A DNA stretch of 38,267 bases from Verrucomicrobiota bacterium (lineage in GTDB: Bacteria > Verrucomicrobiota > Verrucomicrobiia > Opitutales > Oceanipulchritudinaceae), in assembly GCA_009908535.1 (NCBI GenBank), contig JAAAOD010000043.1, positions 1-38,267 on the forward strand, in the 5' to 3' direction. The notes beneath the pieces were generated by a model, which saw nothing but the letters and a program-made list of their open reading frames with translations, did not search any database and was not told the DNA's origin. Of this stretch, positions 14,895 to 38,267 are shown in pieces; the stretch's first letter is position 1, and each line of letters begins with the position of its first letter. The position numbers and the translations under genes were made by a program.

Positions 14895-15794
14895 ATGAAG
14901 GAATTCCGTATCCATTTTATCATTATCGGCGCGGCCAAGGCGGGGACGACGAGCCTTGCCCGCTGGCTGGCGGAAACGCCCGCGTGTTGCCTGAGCGAAC
15001 CGAAGGAAACGATGTTCTTCGGAAGCGAGCGCCGGCACCGGGAGGGGCTGGACTGGTACCGGCGGACCTACTTCGCCCACTGGGATGGAAAATCCCTGCC
15101 GGGGGAGGCAACGCCTGCCTATTCCGACCGGACGGAATGTCCGGGTACCCCGGAACGGGTTCATGCCCACAACCCCGGAGCCCGCATTCTCTACATGGTG
15201 CGCGATCCGGTCAAACGGACGGAATCCGCATGGCGTATGTGGGCGAGCCTGGAACCCCACGGCCATCCTTTCGCGGATCACCTGATCGAGCGTGCCCGGG
15301 CCGGATTCCATGCCTGGCTGGAAGATGCGACCGTATTCCGCCACGTCACGGAAACCAGTCGCTACGCCTGGCAGTGGGAAGCCTGGAAGGCGTTTCCCGC
15401 CAGTCAGCGGATGACCCTCTTTCTTGAGGACCTGCAGGCCGACAAGGAGAGGGCCTTGCGGCAGGTGGCGCAATTCCTGGAAATCCCCGCCGGCCCTCTC
15501 CTCGCGAAAAGCAACCGCAACTATAATACTGCGGAAGGCCGTATCATGAAAACGGCCCTTCGGAAAGGAGTGGAGGGGCACGTCCTCTGGCGCTCGGTCA
15601 AGCGGTTCGTCCCGGAGGTGATGAAACGGCGCCTCCTTGATAGCCCCCTCGGCACGCGCAAAGCCGAACTGCCGGCGGAGGGCTGGAACCCGGGCCTGAA
15701 ACGGCGGTTTCTCGACGAAGTTCGGGAGGATGCCCTGCGTCTTTTGCATGAACAGGGCCGGCCCGGCAGTTTCTGGGATCTGGAACTTGAATGA
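14895..15794 (+). CDS. Sulfotransferase domain protein
   Basis: FIIIGAAKAGTTSLARWLAETPAC (5'-PSB-type P-loop), CLSEPKETMFF, ILYMVRDPVKRTESAWRMW (3'-PB-type RDPxxRxxS). Confidence 0.9.
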   Translation: MKEFRIHFIIIGAAKAGTTSLARWLAETPACCLSEPKETMFFGSERRHREGLDWYRRTYFAHWDGKSLPGEATPAYSDRTECPGTPERVHAHNPGARILYMVRDPVKRTESAWRMWASLEPHGHPFADHLIERARAGFHAWLEDATVFRHVTETSRYAWQWEAWKAFPASQRMTLFLEDLQADKERALRQVAQFLEIPAGPLLAKSNRNYNTAEGRIMKTALRKGVEGHVLWRSVKRFVPEVMKRRLLDSPLGTRKAELPAEGWNPGLKRRFLDEVREDALRLLHEQGRPGSFWDLELE

Positions 15795-25190: not shown

Positions 25191-26384
25191 ATGCGCCTTC
25201 TTTTCCTAGCCACCTATTTCCCGGACCCCTTTCATCCTTCGCGGGGCAATTGGGCGCTTGAGCAAGCACAGGCCTTCCAGAATGCCGGCGACGAGGTGCT
25301 TGTCATGGTCCCGACGGCATGGGTGCCGCGTTGGATGCGGCTGCTTCCGGGGAAGATCCGCAACCACGCCCTCGCCCCGCCGCATTGGCAGGTGGAGGAC
25401 CTCTCCATTGAATATCCCCGTTGGCCTTATTACCCGTGGCATTTCCTCGCCGGCTGGAACCGGCGCCACCCTTCCTACCTGTTGCGGATGGCGTGGCTTG
25501 CGCGCAAGGGCCGTTTCCTGCGCAGGATTGATGAGTTCGAACCGGACGCTATCTGCGCGCATCACACCCTTGTCAACGGACAATTGGCTTGGATGATTTT
25601 CCAAGCGCGCGGCATTCCCTACTTCGTCACGGACCATGAAATCGGCGACCTGCTTGCGGCGGAACAGCGCCGGGAGATTGCCGACATTTTCCGGAAGGTG
25701 GGCAAGAGCGCAAAGGCCATGGTGGTCGTCTCCAAGGCGATGCAGAGAAAGGCGAATACCCTCTTTCCGGAACTGCCCGTGAAAACTATCTACAACGGCA
25801 GCTCCTTTCCCGCCACGCCTTCGATGGACCGCCCCCCGAGGACGGAGCCGGTGATCTTTTCCTGCGCCAAGTTCTACGGGCGCAAGGATATCCCCCTCCT
25901 CGTGAGGGCCTTTGACAGGGTCGCGGAAACGAGCCCGGGAAGGTTGCGGATTGCCGGCGACGGCCCCGACCGGGCCGAGGTGGAATCAGCGGTCGCGCAG
26001 GCAGGTCACCGGGATCGCATCGAATTACTGGGGTTGCTCCGCCCTGAGGAGGTGAGGAAGGAAATGGGGCAAGCGGATATATTCGCCCTTGTCGGTTGGG
26101 CGGAGCCTTTCGGGGTGGTTTTCCTCGAAGCCATGGCTTGCGGCCTTCCCGTCCTGCTCAGCGAGGACGCCGGCATTGCCGAGATCCTCGAGGATGGAAA
26201 GACCGCCGTTTTCAGCAAGCCTCGCGACCGAACTTCCGTGGAGAAAGTCCTGCGGCCGCTGCTTCAGGACGCCGGGCTGCGGAAGAGGATCGGGGAAGCG
26301 GGAAGGATGCTGTATCGGGAGCATTTCCAATGGGCATCCATCATTCGCCAGTATCAGGATATCCTAACAAGGGAAGCGGGATGA
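25191..26384 (+). CDS. Glycosyltransferase family 4
   Basis: LFLATYFPDPFHPSRGNWALEQAQAFQNAGDEVLVMVP, IYNGSSFP, IFSCAKFYGRKDIPLLVRAF, GWAEPFGVVFLEAMACGLPVLLSEDAGIAEIL. Confidence 0.93.
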   Translation: MRLLFLATYFPDPFHPSRGNWALEQAQAFQNAGDEVLVMVPTAWVPRWMRLLPGKIRNHALAPPHWQVEDLSIEYPRWPYYPWHFLAGWNRRHPSYLLRMAWLARKGRFLRRIDEFEPDAICAHHTLVNGQLAWMIFQARGIPYFVTDHEIGDLLAAEQRREIADIFRKVGKSAKAMVVVSKAMQRKANTLFPELPVKTIYNGSSFPATPSMDRPPRTEPVIFSCAKFYGRKDIPLLVRAFDRVAETSPGRLRIAGDGPDRAEVESAVAQAGHRDRIELLGLLRPEEVRKEMGQADIFALVGWAEPFGVVFLEAMACGLPVLLSEDAGIAEILEDGKTAVFSKPRDRTSVEKVLRPLLQDAGLRKRIGEAGRMLYREHFQWASIIRQYQDILTREAG

Positions 26385-27175
26385 AGGGCGGGATAAAGGA
26401 AATTGCCCTCTATGGGGAACGATGCTCCGGAACCAACCTCTTCGCAGCAATTCTCCGGGCAAACAGCCCCTGTGCCGTTGCCTACCCCTTAGGATTCAAA
26501 CATTTCCCAAGAATGTCCGCGGAAAGGGAACAGCGCCGCCTCCTGCGTGATCGCCCGGTTATTTTCCTAATCCGTCATCCTGAAAGCTGGGTTCGTTCCA
26601 TGTTCCTGAACCCCTGGCACGCCAAGGAAGATATTCGAGAAAAAGACTTTTCCGGTTTTCTTCGGGCCGAATGGCAGTCGATCTGGAATGAGGAGGCGAA
26701 TGTCTTCCCCGGCAATCCCCGCTATGGGACGTCGATCAAAGAAGACTGCGATTCCGTGACCGGCAAGCCTTTCCCCAATCTCCTCCGTATGAGGACCGCG
26801 AAAATTCGCCGGTTCAAGGAGATTGCGACCTGGAGCAGCCAATCCCGATGGATCCGCCTGGAAGACCTTGTTCGGGACCAGGAAACTACTTTCCGCGAAA
26901 TCGCCCATCTGTTCGGTCTCCCTGTCCGGGGCGAATTCACTCCGGTGCTCGCCTACAAAGGGAACGCCTCCTGGCGATCGGAGTTGCTCCGCCGCGTCGG
27001 ACTGCATCGCTTCAGTGCCAGTGCACGGAGGGAAGCGAGGAAACCGGTCATCAAAGCAGAAGACCGTGATTTTATCTGGTCGGAACTGGACGCGGTGACG
27101 GAAGCCGCCTTCGGCTATGCGCCCGGATTCAACATTGCCGCGATGGAGGGAAAGGAGGTTGGAATCGATTCATGA
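26381..27175 (+). CDS. P-loop sulfotransferase-like protein
   Basis: ATGA overlap; EIALYGERCSGTNLFAAILRAN (P-loop-like) and RPVIFLIRHPESWVRSMFLNPWH (3'-PB-like), WSSQSRWIRLEDLVRD. Confidence 0.68.
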   Translation: MKGGIKEIALYGERCSGTNLFAAILRANSPCAVAYPLGFKHFPRMSAEREQRRLLRDRPVIFLIRHPESWVRSMFLNPWHAKEDIREKDFSGFLRAEWQSIWNEEANVFPGNPRYGTSIKEDCDSVTGKPFPNLLRMRTAKIRRFKEIATWSSQSRWIRLEDLVRDQETTFREIAHLFGLPVRGEFTPVLAYKGNASWRSELLRRVGLHRFSASARREARKPVIKAEDRDFIWSELDAVTEAAFGYAPGFNIAAMEGKEVGIDS

Positions 27176-28983: not shown

Positions 28984-30099
28984 TTACCATCGAGCCCGGA
29001 AACCGACGCCCGTACGTAGCCGGTCATACTGGAAAAAGTCCACGTTGGAGCTGCGATCGGAATAGCGAAGGGAGGCGGAGAGGCTTCCCCAACGGGAGAA
29101 TTTCCAGTTCAGGGAGGCCGTGGCGTAGTATTCCTCGTCTTCACGATCCTCCCCGGTCAAGCCTTCATAGGTGATGTCGGTGTAGCCGATCCCTGCGTTC
29201 GCCGACCAGTCCCGGTTGAGTTGCCGCCGGAAAATCACGGAGAGATCGAGGGACTCGGTGGTAAGGTCGCTGAAGGTTGTGTTCGTCTGGTAATTGCTGC
29301 GGATTGCGGAGCTGGTTGTTTCGTTGATCATCCATTCGAGGCTGCCAGCAAGATAAGGCGTGGTACTATCCTCCCGGTCCTCGAACGAGCGTTGCTGCAG
29401 GCCAACAGAAAGGGATCCGGTCACCTTGCTGAGTATTTGATCGCGGAGACCGACATACACGGTCACGGTGTCGTGTTCGCTGCGAATTTCGTCATCGGAA
29501 TCGGTCTTCTGGTAGGAAGCTCCCAGCTCGCCTGTCATTTCCTTGCGGATGGGAAAGCGGGCGGCAATACCGGCGTTTGTTCGCTGCACCTCGTCAAAGC
29601 GGTCTGAATCAGGATCCTCGAGCTGACTGCCGGCAGTTCCGACCAGCGTCAGCCGCTGATTGACCCGGTAGGTGAGTTCAGCGGCCAGGCCGTAGGTCCG
29701 TACGTTGACGATCTCACCGAGTGTCTCTTCACTCCGGGTCTGGGAATTCAGGATCAGGTCGACACTGAAGCTGAAACGATCCCCCTCGAACCGCTGGCCC
29801 GGGCTGACGCTCAGGTCGAACTTGAAATTCTCGTCGTCAAATTGCGAATTATCGAGGTAACGGATAAAGCGGATGCCGGCCGAAGCACGGATGGCCAATG
29901 TGGGTGACGGACGCGAGAAATGAAGGTCGGTGCCGAGGCTCCCGATGAAATCGGACAGCCCCTGGTTGCGGGCATTGATCTCCGAATCATAGCTGAAATC
30001 CCCCTGGAGGGAGAGGTCTACAGTAGATTCACCCAAGTTGAAGAGGGCCCATAAAGGACAGGGAAGGAGGAGAAGCAGGAACGGGGTCAGTTTCATCAC
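28984..30099 (-). CDS. Outer-membrane beta-barrel protein associated with EPS export
   Basis: Signal peptide MMKLTPFLLLLLPCPLWA; alternating amphipathic strands throughout; C-terminal strand ending in RTGVGFRARW (terminal aromatic). Overlaps the kinase stop by 4 bp. Confidence 0.75.
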   Translation of the reverse strand: MMKLTPFLLLLLPCPLWALFNLGESTVDLSLQGDFSYDSEINARNQGLSDFIGSLGTDLHFSRPSPTLAIRASAGIRFIRYLDNSQFDDENFKFDLSVSPGQRFEGDRFSFSVDLILNSQTRSEETLGEIVNVRTYGLAAELTYRVNQRLTLVGTAGSQLEDPDSDRFDEVQRTNAGIAARFPIRKEMTGELGASYQKTDSDDEIRSEHDTVTVYVGLRDQILSKVTGSLSVGLQQRSFEDREDSTTPYLAGSLEWMINETTSSAIRSNYQTNTTFSDLTTESLDLSVIFRRQLNRDWSANAGIGYTDITYEGLTGEDREDEEYYATASLNWKFSRWGSLSASLRYSDRSSNVDFFQYDRLRTGVGFRARW

Positions 30100-32228
30100 G
30101 AGGCCTTGCTTGGATAGTAGCTTTTGTATTTTCCGTAATCGGAATAGCGGTACACACCCAGATTGCGGGATTTTGTCCGGGAAACTTTGTTGACAATCAG
30201 CCCGAGGACCTGGGCATTGCTCTGTTCCAGCCGCAGCATGATCGCCTTGAGGGCCGACTTGCGATGCTTATTGATTTGGGTGAGGAAGAGAAAATGGTGA
30301 CCATATTTGCCGATGAGCCCTGCGTCCGGGAAAAGTCCCGAGGGAGGGGTGTCAATAATGACGATGTCATATCCATCCTGAAGGCGGCGAAGTTCGGTAC
30401 GGAATTCGTTGGATTCAATCCACTCGGTCGCCTCCACGGTTGTTTTGCAAGCGGGGAGAATGTCGAAATTTTCCGCGTAAGGAAGCGGTTCGCCGTTGTC
30501 GCCGTGCTCCTTGCGGATTTTGTCCAGATCCTCTTTCATTCGTCCCCCGACGGAAGGGCGGCGGAAATCACAGTCCATCAGAAGCGTCTTGTAATGGTGC
30601 CGGCTGAAGGAGGCGGCCAGGTTGATAGCGAGGAAGGATTTGCCCTCCTTTGGCAGGGCGCTCGTGATGATGAAGGTGTGCCCGGGCTGCAGGACTTTGT
30701 TGCGAAGGAGAATCTGGCTATGCAGCTGGCGGAATAATTCCGATGCCTGGGGATCCAGTTGCTTGAGGACGACGTTGTGAAGCTCCTTCAATCGGCGGGG
30801 GAATTTCCGTATCTCCCCGAGGAAGGGAACCTGGAGCTGTTGCTCGATATCGGCGGCCGTCTTCAAATTGAGGTTGAGGAAATGAATGGCGTAAGGGACC
30901 GTGCCGAAACAGGCGAGGAAAATAAAAACCGCCATCGAGTACATCTTGTTTTCATCCGGGAGGAAAGGCTTGGATGCCGGCCATGCACGATCGATCAAGC
31001 GCATGTTCGTCTCGTTGAGCTGGCTGGAGAGAAGAGCCTCGTTGAGGCGCTGGTGGACCTGCGTGAACAAGCGCTTGTTGGTGTCCAGTTTGCGACGGAG
31101 GACATTATATTCGATAGCCACCTGATCGAGCTCAAGGGCCTCTTTTTCGGCTTCCGCAAGAGCCTCTTCCAGCTTGCCGACCCGCATCCGCATTTCCTCA
31201 TGCTGCTTTCGGAAATCAGATACATTCTTTTTGATACTTTCCCGTATATCGGTCTCCAACTGCTCGAGGGCCGCTTCGTTTTCCACCATTTTCGGGTGCC
31301 TTTTGCCGTAGCGCAATTTCATGCTGGAACGCTCTCCGAGGAGGCTGTTTCTGCGTTCGAACTTCTGGGGGAGGCTTCCCATTTGGTTGATGGCGGGGAG
31401 TTTTGCCAACTCGTCCAGATCCATGTCGGTGCCCTCGATGGTCTCGAGGGTAGCGGACAAGTTGAGCAACTGGACGTTCGCCTCGTTCAGCCGCCCGCTG
31501 AGGTTTTTCATGCGGTCGACAATCAGGTTCTGGCTCTCCTCGAGAGAGACCAGGTTGCGCTCCTGACGGTAATTCTGCACCGCCATTTCAGCCCTTTCCA
31601 CCTTGAGTTTCAGCTCCTCGCTCTGGCGACGCAGAAAGCGAAGGGCCGATTCGTTGGTTTTCCGGGAACGTTCCGTAATGAAATTGAGAAACTCCTCGCT
31701 GAAGCGATTGGCAAGGAGGGCGGCCGCCTGCGGATTCCTGTGGTGGAATTCGAATTTAAAGAGATTGCCTCCCACCTGGGAGATTTTGTTCCCCCCCGCT
31801 ATGATTCCGTGCAGGCTGGGATCCTCGTTTGACCCGGGTGTCTTATAATCCCTGAGCAGAAGTTCGCGTTCGTCCGGGGTGAAGCTGTCGATTACCCGGG
31901 AGCGAAAGGAATTACTCCGAAGATCGGTCAGGTGTCCTTTCAGGATGAGGCTGGCGGTTCCGGGGTTGGTTCTGCCGCCCGCATTGTCGATATTCAGGAC
32001 CCGCTCCTTTTGCGGTTCAAAAACCATGATGGCCATCGACTTGTACAGGGGGATGGTCTGGGATTCCTTGTAGATGTAGAAGCCGGCCGTGGTGAGCGCG
32101 ACGAGCAGGGCAAGAAACCAGTGCTCCCGGATTATCCACAGGTAATCCAGCCAGCTTTTTTCGGTCATTAATTTGCTGGCTTTATCGGATCCCGGCGTGC
32201 TTGTGCTGGAGGATGACTCGGAAGACAT
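30096..32228 (-). CDS. Polysaccharide co-polymerase/tyrosine autokinase (Wzz domain fused to BY-kinase)
   Basis: N-terminal Wzz with two TM segments (HWFLALLVALTTAGFYI; MAVFIFLACFGTVPYAI) and a coiled coil; C-terminal Walker A SALPKEGKSFLAINLA, Walker A' LLMDCDFRRP, Walker B IVIIDTPPSG and Tyr-rich tail VYRYSDYGKYKSYYP. Confidence 0.94.
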   Translation of the reverse strand: MSSESSSSTSTPGSDKASKLMTEKSWLDYLWIIREHWFLALLVALTTAGFYIYKESQTIPLYKSMAIMVFEPQKERVLNIDNAGGRTNPGTASLILKGHLTDLRSNSFRSRVIDSFTPDERELLLRDYKTPGSNEDPSLHGIIAGGNKISQVGGNLFKFEFHHRNPQAAALLANRFSEEFLNFITERSRKTNESALRFLRRQSEELKLKVERAEMAVQNYRQERNLVSLEESQNLIVDRMKNLSGRLNEANVQLLNLSATLETIEGTDMDLDELAKLPAINQMGSLPQKFERRNSLLGERSSMKLRYGKRHPKMVENEAALEQLETDIRESIKKNVSDFRKQHEEMRMRVGKLEEALAEAEKEALELDQVAIEYNVLRRKLDTNKRLFTQVHQRLNEALLSSQLNETNMRLIDRAWPASKPFLPDENKMYSMAVFIFLACFGTVPYAIHFLNLNLKTAADIEQQLQVPFLGEIRKFPRRLKELHNVVLKQLDPQASELFRQLHSQILLRNKVLQPGHTFIITSALPKEGKSFLAINLAASFSRHHYKTLLMDCDFRRPSVGGRMKEDLDKIRKEHGDNGEPLPYAENFDILPACKTTVEATEWIESNEFRTELRRLQDGYDIVIIDTPPSGLFPDAGLIGKYGHHFLFLTQINKHRKSALKAIMLRLEQSNAQVLGLIVNKVSRTKSRNLGVYRYSDYGKYKSYYPSKAS

Positions 32229-32291: not shown

Positions 32292-32951
32292 CTAGAAAAG
32301 CCGCTCGGGGACGAATATGATATCCTGCGGGTAGATTTGCACGAGTTCGCTTCTACGGCGTTTGTTGCCCCGGATCATTTTATCAAGATCGACCGTGAAT
32401 TTTTCCTCTTCGTTGGAGTTCGGCAGGGGCCTCCGGACCACGATATCGGATCGCTTGGCGTACTGCGAGAGGTCTCCCGCGAGGGTGATCGCTTCGAGGA
32501 TGTCAATGGAGGCCTCCCCTGAAGGAAACGTTTTCGCCCCCGGACTATTTACTTCCCCGAAAACATAAAACACTTTCTCCGCGTGTCTGACAATGGTGAC
32601 GGTCACCTGCGGGTGGATCAGATATTCCTCCTCGATAAACTGGTTTTCCAGGAATGATTCGGCTTCCCGAAGGGATTTCCCGGAGAGGTTGGTTCGACCC
32701 AGCAGGGGGATAATGATGACGCCGTTGGGGTCGATCTCCTGTTCCACGGAGAGGTCCGGTTCGTTAAAAACCCTGACGGCAATCACGTCTCCGCTTTGCA
32801 GGATATAAGTTGCCTCTTCCTGGGGAGGTGTTCCCTGACCCTGTGCAGAGAGGGGAAAGCAACAGGTGAGCAGGAAGCCCGCAATGAAGAGCGTCCGGGT
32901 GAAGGTGTTTTGTTCAGTACGCGACAGCACAGTAATTAATATACAAGACAA
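32292..32951 (-). CDS. Short polysaccharide export protein (OPX/Wza family, SLBB)
   Basis: YILQSGDVIAVRVFNEPDLSVEQEIDPNGVIIIPLLGRTNLSGKSLREAESFLENQF (Poly_export) plus VFYVFGEVNSPGAKTFPSGEASIDILEAITLAGDLSQYA (SLBB). ORF-track start is TTG; GTG at 32930 is an alternative. Confidence 0.92.
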   Translation of the reverse strand: MSCILITVLSRTEQNTFTRTLFIAGFLLTCCFPLSAQGQGTPPQEEATYILQSGDVIAVRVFNEPDLSVEQEIDPNGVIIIPLLGRTNLSGKSLREAESFLENQFIEEEYLIHPQVTVTIVRHAEKVFYVFGEVNSPGAKTFPSGEASIDILEAITLAGDLSQYAKRSDIVVRRPLPNSNEEEKFTVDLDKMIRGNKRRRSELVQIYPQDIIFVPERLF

Positions 32952-33127: not shown

Positions 33128-36100
33128 GTGAAAAAGGCGGTTTGGCTTCCGGTCCTCTTCCTGAGGCGGATTCTGTCGGGCTATGGTGCCGCCACCATGA
33201 AAAGCAGCGCTCTGAACACCTTGATGAAGATGTTAGTTCCCCGGAAACGGCTTTTATCCTTTGCGGTAATCAGCTTGTTGATAGCCGGTTTCTGGAAAGC
33301 GGGCTTTACGCCCGAGCGGTCCGACGCCCCGGCGATGGAGAAAGCCGCTGAAGCCCGGATGGAGAAAGCAGAGTCTGCGTGGTTGCCAGCCAGCAGCGCC
33401 GAGGCGGTAGCGGCGACGCAGGAAGAGGCCGCCCCGCTTCTTCATTCGCCGTTTCTCGACACCGAGAATCTGGAGATGGAGGAGTGGCGCAGCCGGGCCG
33501 GTACGGTCGAGGGGATTTTCCGCCTGCGGGATGGGCGGCGCGTTGTTTTTTCGGCCCGCAAAAACAGGCAAGGCCATTTGTCCATTCGTTCCGCAGCGAT
33601 CGCCGGGGAGTACATTCTGCGCACGGACGACCTCCCCTGGTCTGCGTGGCAAGCCGAGAAATACTTCCGGCGCGGACGCATCCAAGTCTTAGAGTCCAAT
33701 AAGCACTTGACTCAAATCCGCGTACCGGCGGAGGACCTGAGAGCCATCGAAACATCGGAAACCATGCTGTTCCGGCATCTTGGGAAAGAACAAGTGGGGC
33801 GAAACGGCCTGGTCTACCCGGTTGCGGCACCTGATGATCCAAAGTACGCTGCCTCGTGGGCCCTTGCCAAGCTGGATCTCGAACCAGTCTGGGAGAAGTT
33901 CGGGTTTTCCCCGGAAGCTTCCCTTGCCCGCCGGCCGATTATCGCGGTGGTTGATAACGGGGCGCCTGCCGACTACCCGGATTATCATTACTGGGTGAAC
34001 GAGGATGAAGTTCCGGGAAACGGGATTGATGATGACGGGAATGGGTATGTCGATGACCTTACCGGGTATAATTTCCACCACTACAATTCCGACCTGAGCT
34101 TCAGCGGCGGGCATGGATCCTCCATCGCGAGGATTTCGGCCTCCATCACCAACAATGGATGGGGTTCGGCCAGCCCCGCCTCCTCGGCCGCGCTCATGCG
34201 GGTCAATTACTACGAAAAAGCTGCCGGCACCCATTGGGGGGCGCTTAGTGCAATGCTCTACGCCGGTGAGAACGGTGCCGATGTCATCAATTGCAGCTTT
34301 GTTTCGCAGATCGACACCATGTTCAGTTATGTCATCAGGGAAATCGGCCGTCATGGGGGCATCGTCGTCGCTGCCGCGGGCAACAACAGGATCAATCTTG
34401 ATGACGATTCCATGTATCCCGCTTCCTCTCCGGAGGCGAATGTCATTACGGTCGGTGCAAGCAATGCGGAGGATGAACGTGCCGCCTCCAACTTCAGCGC
34501 CACTCAGGTGGATGTGTTTGCACCCGGTGAGGTCACTTCTTTTGCGACGCCGCTTGTGACCTCCACCCTTGCCCTTCTACGGGCACTGGATCCTTCGGCG
34601 AGCTCAAGCGAGTTGATTGCCGCCGTGGTGGAGGGCGCGGATCCTGTTCACGCCCTTGAAGGCCTTTGCGTTGCCAATGGACGCTTGAACACTCGGGGCG
34701 CGGTGGAGTCGCTTCTCGGCATCTCCCTTTCCGAGGAAGCCGATTTGAAACCCGAGGCCCCTGAACCTCCCCAAGCCCCGGTTTTTGCAGATGTCGAGGC
34801 CAGCAGAGGCTCCATCAAGTTGAGCTGGTCAGAACTTGATGGGATCGACGGGTTTGAGATTCATTACAGTGAGGACGGGAATCCCTTCCTTCCCGTGGAG
34901 CCTTCCTCAATGCTTCCGGCCACTGTTACTTCCCTTGTCGTGGATGGATTGCTGGACGGAACGGACTACAAATTCCGCCTCCGCACCTATGCTGGCAGCC
35001 TCTATTCGGACTGGACTCCGTCGGCTCTTGTCGCGACCCCCGAATCCTCGCCCGAACCTGTCCAAGAGCCGGGACCTACTCCCGAGGTGGAAGGCCGGGT
35101 TCCCGCCCCCTTGCATTACTGGGATATCACGGGTGTGGATGGGAATCCGTTCGAGGATACCGCGACGCGGAACTACCCGATGCTGGTGGAGTCGGTTAAG
35201 GTGGTAAGTGATGAGATCGATGGACACGTGGATCAGGTGGCGGATGTGACGCCTGCCGGAAAAGCTTCCCTCGAGAGCGCGAATTCAACCAATCTTCAGA
35301 TCCGGGATGAGTACACCATTTCCTTCTGGGTGCGGCCATCGGCCGAAAGTCTTGTCGGGCGACCGGTATTATTTGAACAAGGGGGCGGATCGCGAGGCCT
35401 CTGCCTTCATCTGGATGAAGGCAGACTGGTCGCCGGCGCCTGGAATGCCGTTACTTCTGAAAGCGGATGGCAGGGTACCTGGCTACAGGGACCCGCACTC
35501 GCGGTTGAGGAATGGGTCCACATCGGTCTCACCCTCTCCGGAGGCGAAGAGGTCGGCGATTCCGGCTTGACGCTCCATATTAACGGGCAGGTTGTCGCGG
35601 AAGGCCCTGCCTCCCAGCTCTGGCGCCACAGTGATGGCATCGGAATAGGGACCGTGTCCGGGAAAGCCCGCGTAAATGGAGAGGTCGTCTCTTCAGCGGA
35701 TCCGTTCGCAGGTGCCTTCGATGACTTGGCCATCTGGCACACCAGTCTTTCGGAAGCGGAATTCCATGATTGGATCGGGATAACCTGTGGAAGGGATCGC
35801 CCTGCAGAAAATTGCCCTGCTCCGATATACGAACCAGCACCCGGGAGTCCCGTTGTCACCAAGCCGGATCCTAATGGCGAAGCCGAGGTTGTTGCGGAGA
35901 ATGAAGGGGGGGCCACTCCCGCGCAACAGGACATCTACAGCGCGCCGCAACTCGATGCCAATGGCAACGTTGTGGTGGTGGTCCCCGATCCTGCGCACTT
36001 CTGGGATTTTGAAGAAGGCAACGGCGCCTGGGCGATGGACGGAGGATATGATCCGGTGAACTTGAAAGTCACTGCATGTGATTGGGTTGCGGTCGGGAAC

Positions 36101-36670
36101 GGAGAAACCTTCCTTGAATTTCCCGAAAACCATCCGGGAGTGCGAATGGACGGCTCAACTTCCATTAACCTGGAAACAAGGCGGATGCTTACCATTGCGA
36201 TGTGGGTGCGTCCCGACGAATCGGCAGGGGAAAAGACCTCCGTCCTGTATGAGCAGGGTGGTTACTGGCGTGGTTTGAATCTCCTTCTTGAAAACGGACG
36301 CCTGCAGGCCAATGGCTGGAACAAGCCGGATAACGAATCCGGCTGGAACCTGACGACTTTGCATGGAGGCGATGTCCTTCTTGGTCAGTGGAACCATGTG
36401 GCTGTCGTTCTTGAAGCAGGTGATGCGGTGAAGGAAGGATCTTTCCGGCTCTTCCTGAACGGCAATTTGGTCGATGCGGGAGCCGCTTCGCAGCTCTGGG
36501 TGCATTCAGGTGCCATTGGTCTTGGGCAGGTCCAAGGAACGACCCTCTACCGTGACCAGGGGGTTCGGGAATTGGACCCGTTCCAGGGGTGCATTGATGA
36601 CCTGGCAGTTTGGGAAGCTCCCCTTTACGGAGCCCAGATCGAGGAACTCATCCTCAGTCGTTCTTTTTAA
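33128..36670 (+). CDS. Secreted S8 subtilase-like protein with FN3 and two LamG-like (concanavalin A-like) domains
   Basis: RPIIAVVDNGAPADYPDYHYW (Asp), GNGIDDDGNGYVDDLTGYNF (Ca-binding-type insert), GGHGSSIARI (His), GGIVVAAAGNN (Asn), APGEVTSFATPLV (Ser); FN3 at PPQAPVFADVEASRGSIKLSWSEL...; two repeats with YTISFWVRP / LTIAMWVRP and FDDLAIW / IDDLAVW. Start uncertain (33128 is GTG; internal ATGs exist). Confidence 0.85.
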   Translation: MKKAVWLPVLFLRRILSGYGAATMKSSALNTLMKMLVPRKRLLSFAVISLLIAGFWKAGFTPERSDAPAMEKAAEARMEKAESAWLPASSAEAVAATQEEAAPLLHSPFLDTENLEMEEWRSRAGTVEGIFRLRDGRRVVFSARKNRQGHLSIRSAAIAGEYILRTDDLPWSAWQAEKYFRRGRIQVLESNKHLTQIRVPAEDLRAIETSETMLFRHLGKEQVGRNGLVYPVAAPDDPKYAASWALAKLDLEPVWEKFGFSPEASLARRPIIAVVDNGAPADYPDYHYWVNEDEVPGNGIDDDGNGYVDDLTGYNFHHYNSDLSFSGGHGSSIARISASITNNGWGSASPASSAALMRVNYYEKAAGTHWGALSAMLYAGENGADVINCSFVSQIDTMFSYVIREIGRHGGIVVAAAGNNRINLDDDSMYPASSPEANVITVGASNAEDERAASNFSATQVDVFAPGEVTSFATPLVTSTLALLRALDPSASSSELIAAVVEGADPVHALEGLCVANGRLNTRGAVESLLGISLSEEADLKPEAPEPPQAPVFADVEASRGSIKLSWSELDGIDGFEIHYSEDGNPFLPVEPSSMLPATVTSLVVDGLLDGTDYKFRLRTYAGSLYSDWTPSALVATPESSPEPVQEPGPTPEVEGRVPAPLHYWDITGVDGNPFEDTATRNYPMLVESVKVVSDEIDGHVDQVADVTPAGKASLESANSTNLQIRDEYTISFWVRPSAESLVGRPVLFEQGGGSRGLCLHLDEGRLVAGAWNAVTSESGWQGTWLQGPALAVEEWVHIGLTLSGGEEVGDSGLTLHINGQVVAEGPASQLWRHSDGIGIGTVSGKARVNGEVVSSADPFAGAFDDLAIWHTSLSEAEFHDWIGITCGRDRPAENCPAPIYEPAPGSPVVTKPDPNGEAEVVAENEGGATPAQQDIYSAPQLDANGNVVVVVPDPAHFWDFEEGNGAWAMDGGYDPVNLKVTACDWVAVGNGETFLEFPENHPGVRMDGSTSINLETRRMLTIAMWVRPDESAGEKTSVLYEQGGYWRGLNLLLENGRLQANGWNKPDNESGWNLTTLHGGDVLLGQWNHVAVVLEAGDAVKEGSFRLFLNGNLVDAGAASQLWVHSGAIGLGQVQGTTLYRDQGVRELDPFQGCIDDLAVWEAPLYGAQIEELILSRSF

Positions 36671-36869: not shown

Positions 36870-37667
36870 TTACTTCCGGGCTGTCCGCCGGCGCCGGACG
36901 TAAAGGAACCCACCGAGGCCCAAAAGCGCAAGCGCCGCGATCTGGGACGGTTCCGGTACCGGTGTGCTGTTGACATAAAAGAAGCCGTCATCGAAGTCGA
37001 TCGCGTCTCCGGTGCGGTCATCGATCGCGAAAATGTACTCGTCAATGATGGGACTGCCGTCAAGCGGATCTACAGCCTGGAACATTTTGAATTTGTTTTC
37101 ATCCGACTGGTCCGCGAAGACCCCGACGGAGAGGTCGTCGTGCGCGAACCGAACCACAGCGTTAGCCGCATAATCGTTCACCACGGCAACGGTGCGAGGC
37201 GGATCGTCCGGATCGGCTCCGTTGTTATCCTCGTCATAGAGAAAGAGGCTTTCTGATCCTGCGACCGGTGTATCCACTTCCAGAATAAGTTCATTCAGGT
37301 CGATACTGGAATTGCCGAAGTACCCCACGTCCATAATCCCTCCATTTCCCGGGATCAGGAAGGCTGGAAGGTTAACCGTCATTTCGACGAACTTGTGTGT
37401 GGCGACGCTGCCGGCTTCCTTCAAACCCGGAGAGCTGTTGGTCCAGAAGTCACCGGCGACAGAATCAAAAAAGATCTCTGTGTAAGGAGGCCCCTCGGAT
37501 ATACGCCAGATATCGACGACATACAGGTCCTGTTTATCCGACTCCATTTGGTCGATGAAGCCATTGAAAACAGCGTTGGGATTAGGTTCCGTTATGGAAA
37601 CCTGCCCGAAAACAAAAGCAGGGGAGAGCATCCCCGCGGCTGTGACAAGAGTGATGATTTTTTTCAT
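36870..37667 (-). CDS. PEP-CTERM sorting-domain secreted protein (copy 1)
   Basis: Internal ATG at 37667 gives signal peptide MKKIITLVTAAGMLSPAFVFGQ; C-terminus VPEPSQIAALALLGLGGFLYVRRRRTARK is a canonical PEP-CTERM tripartite tail. Confidence 0.9.
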   Translation of the reverse strand: MKKIITLVTAAGMLSPAFVFGQVSITEPNPNAVFNGFIDQMESDKQDLYVVDIWRISEGPPYTEIFFDSVAGDFWTNSSPGLKEAGSVATHKFVEMTVNLPAFLIPGNGGIMDVGYFGNSSIDLNELILEVDTPVAGSESLFLYDEDNNGADPDDPPRTVAVVNDYAANAVVRFAHDDLSVGVFADQSDENKFKMFQAVDPLDGSPIIDEYIFAIDDRTGDAIDFDDGFFYVNSTPVPEPSQIAALALLGLGGFLYVRRRRTARK

Positions 37668-37696
37668 AATGACTGAGTTTGCGATGTTGAAGGCAA

Positions 37697-37725
37697 TATC
37701 TAGGGTATTTTCCTGAAAAAAGCAA
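37697..37725 (-). promoter_or_regulatory. Candidate sigma70-type promoter of PEP-CTERM copy 1
   Basis: On the minus strand TTGCTT-N17-TAGATA in an AT-rich stretch, with the -10 element ~30 bp before the ATG at 37667. Confidence 0.4.
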
Positions 37726-37819
37726 GGAGTTTTTCTGAAGGAAACGGAACTTTTCCGGTTTCCGGCCTGCCCGATGTGGAAGATGCTTTCCCTGCGGAAG
37801 CTGCGTTTCCTTGTCAGTA

Positions 37820-37847
37820 TAAAAAAAGCCACCCTTGCGGGTGGCTG
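37820..37847 (-). terminator. Rho-independent terminator for the second PEP-CTERM gene
   Basis: AGCCACCC-TTGC-GGGTGGCT (37827-37846) followed on the minus strand by T7. Confidence 0.82.
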
Positions 37848-37875
37848 ATCAAAAAAGATTCCGGCTCAGCCCGGC

Positions 37876-38267
37876 TTACTTGCGGGACTGGCGGCGCCGA
37901 CGGATATAGAGAAATCCACCCAGCCCAAGGAGGGCAAGGGCCGCAATCTGCGACGGTTCCGGTACCGGAGCGATGTCGCCGGTCACGTAGAAGAAACCAT
38001 CATCGAAATCAATCGCGTCGTTGGTGCGATCATCAATGGCAAAGATGTACTCGTCATCAATGACGGAGCCGTCCGTAAGGTCGACTGCCTGAAACATTTT
38101 GAATTTGTTTTCGTTCGACTGGTCCGCGTAAACGCCGACGGACAGGTCATCGTGTGCGAAACGAACCACGGAGTTAACGGCGTAATTGTTCACCACGGAA
38201 GCGGTGCGAGGCGGGTCGTCCGGATCGCCTCCGTTATTATCTTCATCGTAGAGGAAGAGGCTTCCCG
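37876..38267 (-). CDS. PEP-CTERM sorting-domain protein (copy 2; N-terminus beyond the window)
   Basis: Frame stays open to the window edge: ...GSLFLYDEDNNGGDPDDPPRTASVVNNYAVNSVVRFAHDDLSVGVYADQSNENKFKMFQAVDLTDGSVIDDEYIFAIDDRTNDAIDFDDGFFYVTGDIAPVPEPSQIAALALLGLGGFLYIRRRRQSRK, close paralog of copy 1. Confidence 0.88.
   Translation of the reverse strand, partial: GSLFLYDEDNNGGDPDDPPRTASVVNNYAVNSVVRFAHDDLSVGVYADQSNENKFKMFQAVDLTDGSVIDDEYIFAIDDRTNDAIDFDDGFFYVTGDIAPVPEPSQIAALALLGLGGFLYIRRRRQSRK

Follow-up and report, generated by a model that had tools for sequence, protein, structure and literature searches.

A subtilase lacking the hairpin before its catalytic serine in an exosortase/EPS locus of Verrucomicrobiota

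The locus described here raises the question whether a subtilase from which the segment directly before the catalytic serine has been lost can still be an enzyme, and, if so, what it would do amid genes for polysaccharide export and PEP-CTERM proteins. The gene lies in a stretch of 38,267 nucleotides of verrucomicrobial DNA, the whole of which is called the window below (Table 1). Its reading frame (33128-36670, plus strand) was verified as present, and translation probably starts at the ATG at 33197 (MKSSALN...), since the orthologue from the same genus begins with MKSSTSN right after an in-frame stop. The product matches the S8 profile PF00082 with 67 bits (curated cut-off 21.8; 67-99 bits among the related genes discussed below) and carries in addition one FN3 and two Laminin_G_3 (LamG) domains. 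The predicted signal sequence suggests a secreted multidomain protein, and the conserved region ahead of the catalytic domain may represent a propeptide.

Table 1. Position of the features discussed, in window coordinates
Feature	Position	Strand	Basis or remark
BBP2_2 outer-membrane beta-barrel, PEP-CTERM-system type	28984..30099	-	PF10082; TIGR03016-like, below cut-off
Wzc-type chain-length determinant/tyrosine autokinase	30096..32228	-	TIGR01007, TIGR03007-like, below cut-offs
Wza-type polysaccharide export protein	32292..32951	-	PF02563; TIGR03027-like, below cut-off
Hairpin-less S8 subtilase gene	33197..36670	+	ORF opens with GTG at 33128; likely start ATG 33197; 1157 aa
N-terminal propeptide-like region, clade-conserved	33449..33808	+	clade alignment; boundary approximate; no family match
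Subtilase catalytic domain as modelled, 303 aa	33809..34717	+	PF00082; AlphaFold2
Catalytic Asp codon (Asp32 equivalent, VVDNG)	33953..33955	+	invariant alignment column D49
Catalytic His codon (His64 equivalent, HGSSIARI)	34112..34114	+	invariant alignment column H102
Oxyanion-hole Asn codon (Asn155 equivalent, AAGNN)	34382..34384	+	invariant alignment column N192
Deletion junction	34520..34540	+	APG 34520-34528, EVT 34529-34537, catalytic Ser codon TCT 34538-34540
Fibronectin type III domain	34769..35017	+	PF00041, residues 548-630
Upstream Laminin_G_3 copy	about 35190-35800	+	PF13385; limits approximate
C-terminal Laminin_G_3 (ConA-like) domain	36179..36640	+	PF13385
PEP-CTERM protein 1, convergent neighbour	36870..37667	-	TIGR02595
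PEP-CTERM protein 2, tandem paralogue, cut by contig end	37876..38267	-	TIGR02595; continues on C30

The junction reads DVFAPG-EVT-SFATPLVTSTLALL (the full stretch in the window subtilase being DVFAPG-EVT-SFATPLV), and a direct count confirmed the initial annotation in that no more than EVT lies between APG and the catalytic serine. In about 120 S8 relatives, drawn from relatives of the source genome and from many phyla, this spacing was at least 17 residues with a mode of 18, and a spacing of 3 was confined to the clade that includes the window gene. The loop is thus indeed shortened, and 15 residues are missing, corresponding to the hairpin that links the APG strand to the serine helix. We take these to be the equivalent of BPN' 204-218 (with APG at 200-202 and Ser at 221), and at the junction Glu would correspond to 203, Val to 219 and Thr to 220. 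The change of GT to VT before the serine noted earlier accordingly concerns Gly219 only, as Thr220 is kept. Two spacings of 9 were traced to a second 'APG' within an intact hairpin, and very short spacings at other loci turned out, on direct counting, to be splits in the alignment.

A local assembly or sequencing error that dropped 45 bases in frame would also yield such a junction, and the assemblies concerned are drafts, beyond which nothing speaks for it. However, the identical junction was found in eight genes with diverged DNA from five separate genomes, indicating that the deletion is genuine and leaving an error a negligible probability. The initial annotation had asked whether homologues share the deletion and had reckoned with intact-loop homologues next to a local deletion error; the nearest homologues share it. 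The conserved hairpin before the serine is really absent from the window subtilase.

The five genomes belong to one family and comprise that of the window (G000), a member of the same genus (G002, 61% identity in the catalytic domain), G005 with three genes, G012 with two and G015. The homologue search covered 72 related genomes, and seven complete genes were used in the counts given below, one of the two G012 genes being a contig-end fragment. In a tree of 92 sequences the seven complete short forms constitute one clade (100/99 support) in which identity reaches down to about 43%, pointing to a single origin of the deletion. Of 384 genomes in the class, only two (G000 and G005) contained the DNA pattern of the junction, the clade consensus protein at high stringency matched the same two among 388 genomes of the phylum, and a contig scan retrieved the clade, among the matches listed, only from Opitutales bacterium Super_Day6_Bin.11 (the same genome as G005). 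Taken together, these searches suggest that the hairpin-less subtilase does not extend beyond a single family of Opitutales-type Verrucomicrobiota. No publication on subtilases with this hairpin deletion was recognisable by title and abstract.

The Asp-His-Ser triad in S8 order and the oxyanion Asn are all present in the window subtilase (Asp32, His64, Asn155 and Ser221), as the initial annotation had it, and the four columns (D49, H102, N192 and S244) are invariant in 92 S8 sequences, all seven complete clade members included. The surroundings of these residues have changed at sites that are nearly universal in S8. Position 70 is Gly in 85/85 other S8 sequences and Arg in 7/7 clade members, Gly127 has become Val or Ile, Gly219 Val or Ala and Gly229 Ser, and further substitutions concern Thr33 (Asn), Met222 (Phe, Tyr or Trp), His226 (Leu) and a Gly-Val pair (Ser-Pro); Gly70, Gly127, Gly219, Gly229, His67, Met222 and His226 are replaced in every complete clade member. 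The His motif HGSSIARI, earlier called weak, is atypical, its departures lying mainly at His67, which is variable, and at Gly70. Further alterations lie in the Asp motif, which reads VVDNG, and in the S1 strand, where NCSFV replaces the usual NxSxG. None of the seven members matches any of the classic Asp, His and Ser signatures, versus 90/118, 102/118 and 106/118 of the other S8 sequences, respectively; these patterns are typical of S8 and not obligatory for each member. The catalytic domain also contains two clade-invariant cysteines (C282 in NCSFV and C407 in GLCVANGRLN, alignment numbering), which possibly form a disulfide.

The lost hairpin, the glycine replacements and the failure of all three signatures in every member could mean that activity was lost, and the initial annotation had indeed considered a pseudoprotease kept as a binding module; at this locus, a dead domain could have a binding or scaffolding role within the EPS matrix or the machinery of the exosortase. 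We regard this as rather unlikely. The triad and the oxyanion Asn have stayed invariant despite the divergence within the clade, the region preceding the catalytic domain is retained, and dN/dS values of 0.066-0.078 in close clade pairs reveal strong purifying selection, indicating that the genes are functional. CspC and CspA of Clostridioides difficile likewise have the S8 fold and a degenerate region around the active site, but triad residues are no longer present in the pseudoprotease CspC (G485, T170), whereas the window subtilase keeps all of them and is changed by deletion of a hairpin (PMC6636752). Taking the loss of at least one triad residue as the mark of a CspC-like pseudoprotease, we found no such loss.

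The structure prediction proposed in the initial annotation gave a confident subtilisin-like fold for the catalytic domain (AlphaFold2 with the alignment of 92 sequences; pLDDT 94.2, pTM 0.94), the closest PDB fold being that of the S8 protease deseasin MCP-01 (3vv3, TM 0.89). In the model, strand 236-239 is followed by helix 243-260, which starts with T243-S244, so that the catalytic serine is the second residue of the helix, a placement that also argues against a pseudoprotease. As the alignment consists mostly of ordinary S8 sequences with an intact hairpin, the model speaks for compatibility with the fold and not for activity, and a subtilisin-like outcome was likely regardless; a run on the seven clade sequences alone (pLDDT 52.7) was set aside. 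The window subtilase and deseasin also share the triad order, the oxyanion Asn and a NEDE..DDDGNGYVDD insert. Compared with deseasin and S8 in general, the window subtilase lacks the hairpin before the serine, has Gly70, Gly127, Gly219, Gly229 and Thr33 replaced and fails the signatures. It is thus an S8 member by fold, profile and triad, yet a new structural variant.

As to the cleft, Tyr217 of subtilisin and subtiligase is a principal specificity determinant on the acyl-acceptor side (PMC9126251) and falls inside the missing hairpin, so a stripped leaving-group side is to be expected. With Gly127, Gly219 and Met222 replaced as well, the altered substrate cleft suspected earlier is well supported. 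The retained catalytic residues, the purifying selection, the fold and the contrast with CspC together lead us to prefer a functioning enzyme whose cleft is unusual.

We also found the window to be part of an exosortase/EPS locus, a context that the initial annotation did not include. The genes for the Wza, Wzc and beta-barrel proteins lie upstream of the subtilase and are divergent from it, and farther upstream there are many glycosyltransferase genes, two sulfotransferase-like genes and one acyltransferase gene. The sulfotransferase-like genes (14895-15791 and 26096-27172, the latter a weak match) lie within the glycosyltransferase cluster and suggest that the exopolysaccharide may be sulfated. 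On the other side, two tandem PEP-CTERM paralogues (window 36870-38267 and C30 1-600) converge on the subtilase, the second being split over two contigs. The last 143 bases of the window are 99.3% identical to the start of contig C30 (L148), indicating that C30 continues the window contig (C190) and carries the exosortase. C30 contains, in this order, the N-terminal part of the second PEP-CTERM gene, a TPR gene, the exosortase gene, a second TPR gene, a histidine kinase gene and a WecA-like transferase gene. The exosortase (522 aa) has XrtD (TIGR04152) as its nearest typed relative and, with 122 bits, stays below the 400-bit cut-off of that type. Exosortase/EPS loci are already known, and PEP-CTERM, exosortase, Wza/Wzc, glycosyltransferase, TPR and histidine kinase genes cluster in the same way in the PEP-CTERM/EpsH systems (Haft et al. 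2006, PMC1569441); the window locus differs in its dedicated subtilase, in a PEP-CTERM ectodomain family of its own and in an exosortase below the XrtD cut-off. In the open-licence literature we found no description of a subtilase as a component of such a locus.

The cluster, in which a subtilase converges on PEP-CTERM genes and a TPR gene and then an exosortase gene come next, is conserved in two genera. The gene order in G002 is identical to that of the window and C30 as far as it could be read, and in G005 one region (G005:C8, L048 1718-10864) contains two subtilases, each converging on PEP-CTERM genes of the same family, followed by TPR and exosortase genes. These two subtilases, whose catalytic domains are 94% identical, represent a tandem duplication of the subtilase/PEP-CTERM unit; a single PEP-CTERM gene separates them and two more follow. 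Linkage to both exosortase and PEP-CTERM genes is direct in G000 (C190 plus C30), G002 and G005:C8, and the subtilase of G012:C369 adjoins PEP-CTERM and TPR genes. This exosortase locus also occurs in G003 (C204, L155 1-8000), a third member of the genus. There the contig breaks off within the TPR gene, towards the expected position of the subtilase and PEP-CTERM genes, so that these need not be absent from G003. The link is not universal in the clade, as a sister group within the short forms (G005:C112, G012:C191 and G015:C207) lies away from exosortase loci, with LemA and M48 peptidase genes as flanks in G005 and G012 and a contig too short to read the flanks in G015. In two sister-group subtilases (L047 3255-8962 and L037 3023-8838) the linkers are long EP repeats.

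A profile of the PEP-CTERM ectodomain, built with the signal peptide and sorting tail removed, detected this family in 4/223 genomes of the order and in 2/388 genomes of the phylum sample (only G000 and G005). In the genomes sampled its members always adjoin a short subtilase of the exosortase-locus form, the lone exception (C30:7-492) being the remaining piece of the second PEP-CTERM gene of the window. In G015 we found neither the exosortase-locus form of the subtilase nor the ectodomain family. The subtilase itself gave no TIGR02595 match to a PEP-CTERM sorting signal and ends in a LamG domain. A sorting signal of its own is expected of a sorted cargo protein, not of an accessory enzyme.

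The C-terminal domains vary by lineage. The G002 orthologue (L039 5421-10004) has eight FN3 hits, several of them nearly identical, and one LamG domain, versus one FN3 and two LamG domains in the window subtilase, indicating a fast turnover of C-terminal domains. Such lectin-like and FN3 C-termini, together with the conserved region before the catalytic domain, would fit an enzyme that cuts only its own propeptide and afterwards serves as an adhesin at the surface via FN3/LamG or discoidin-like domains, since self-processing would demand an intact triad even with the cleft closed to other substrates. This seems quite improbable to us: the reshaped cleft stays constant while the C-terminal domains change, and single-turnover cleavage by itself leaves unexplained why the subtilase is so strictly tied to a single PEP-CTERM family.

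Given its setting at an exosortase locus, the subtilase might also be a peptide ligase or transpeptidase, in which the open acceptor side would favour aminolysis and which would transfer or attach PEP-CTERM proteins or other nucleophile-bearing surface polymers. Engineered subtilisin ligases use S221C, and the clade keeps Ser, which argues against this. Positions 217 and 222, which govern acceptor behaviour in subtiligase and peptiligase, are changed here as well, but the engineered ligases are improved by a small residue at 222, where the clade has a bulky aromatic one, and the window enzyme differs from them in being natural, of the Ser type and without the whole 204-218 segment (PMC9126251). 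We consider ligation highly improbable.

We lean towards the view that the window gene encodes a catalytically competent subtilase of narrow specificity, with a stripped leaving-group side, that is dedicated to the exosortase system and probably acts on PEP-CTERM partners. In the ancestor of the clade, a clean excision of the 15-residue beta-hairpin (BPN' 204-218) would have joined the APG turn to the helix of the catalytic serine and left the leaving-group side of the cleft without a wall. With the triad and oxyanion Asn kept, acyl-enzyme chemistry should be possible, and the larger residues at 127 and 219 and the aromatic residue at 222 would reshape the rest of the cleft in favour of narrow specificity and away from general proteolysis. 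In the lineage of the window the enzyme would be a standing component of the exosortase/EPS locus, and its signal sequence and FN3/LamG domains would probably direct its export to the cell surface or the EPS matrix. There it would mature by removal of the propeptide and cut a narrow set of surface proteins, the likeliest substrates being the adjacent convergent PEP-CTERM proteins, which may be trimmed or released. An open leaving-group side would suit substrates with a bulky, anchored or glycosylated downstream part.

The downstream fate of proteins handled by exosortase systems is poorly known. We tentatively suggest, as a possibility that we hold to be less likely than not, a hitherto undescribed maturation step in which an open-sided dedicated subtilase trims, releases or transfers its cognate PEP-CTERM proteins after sorting. 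If the subtilase is active, the leaving-group-side hairpin and several supposedly fixed glycines would be dispensable for subtilisin function, and nature would thereby offer, in this clade, a template for the redesign of subtilisins and ligases. Should the subtilase act on its PEP-CTERM neighbours, the two would constitute a concrete enzyme-substrate pair for exosortase systems.
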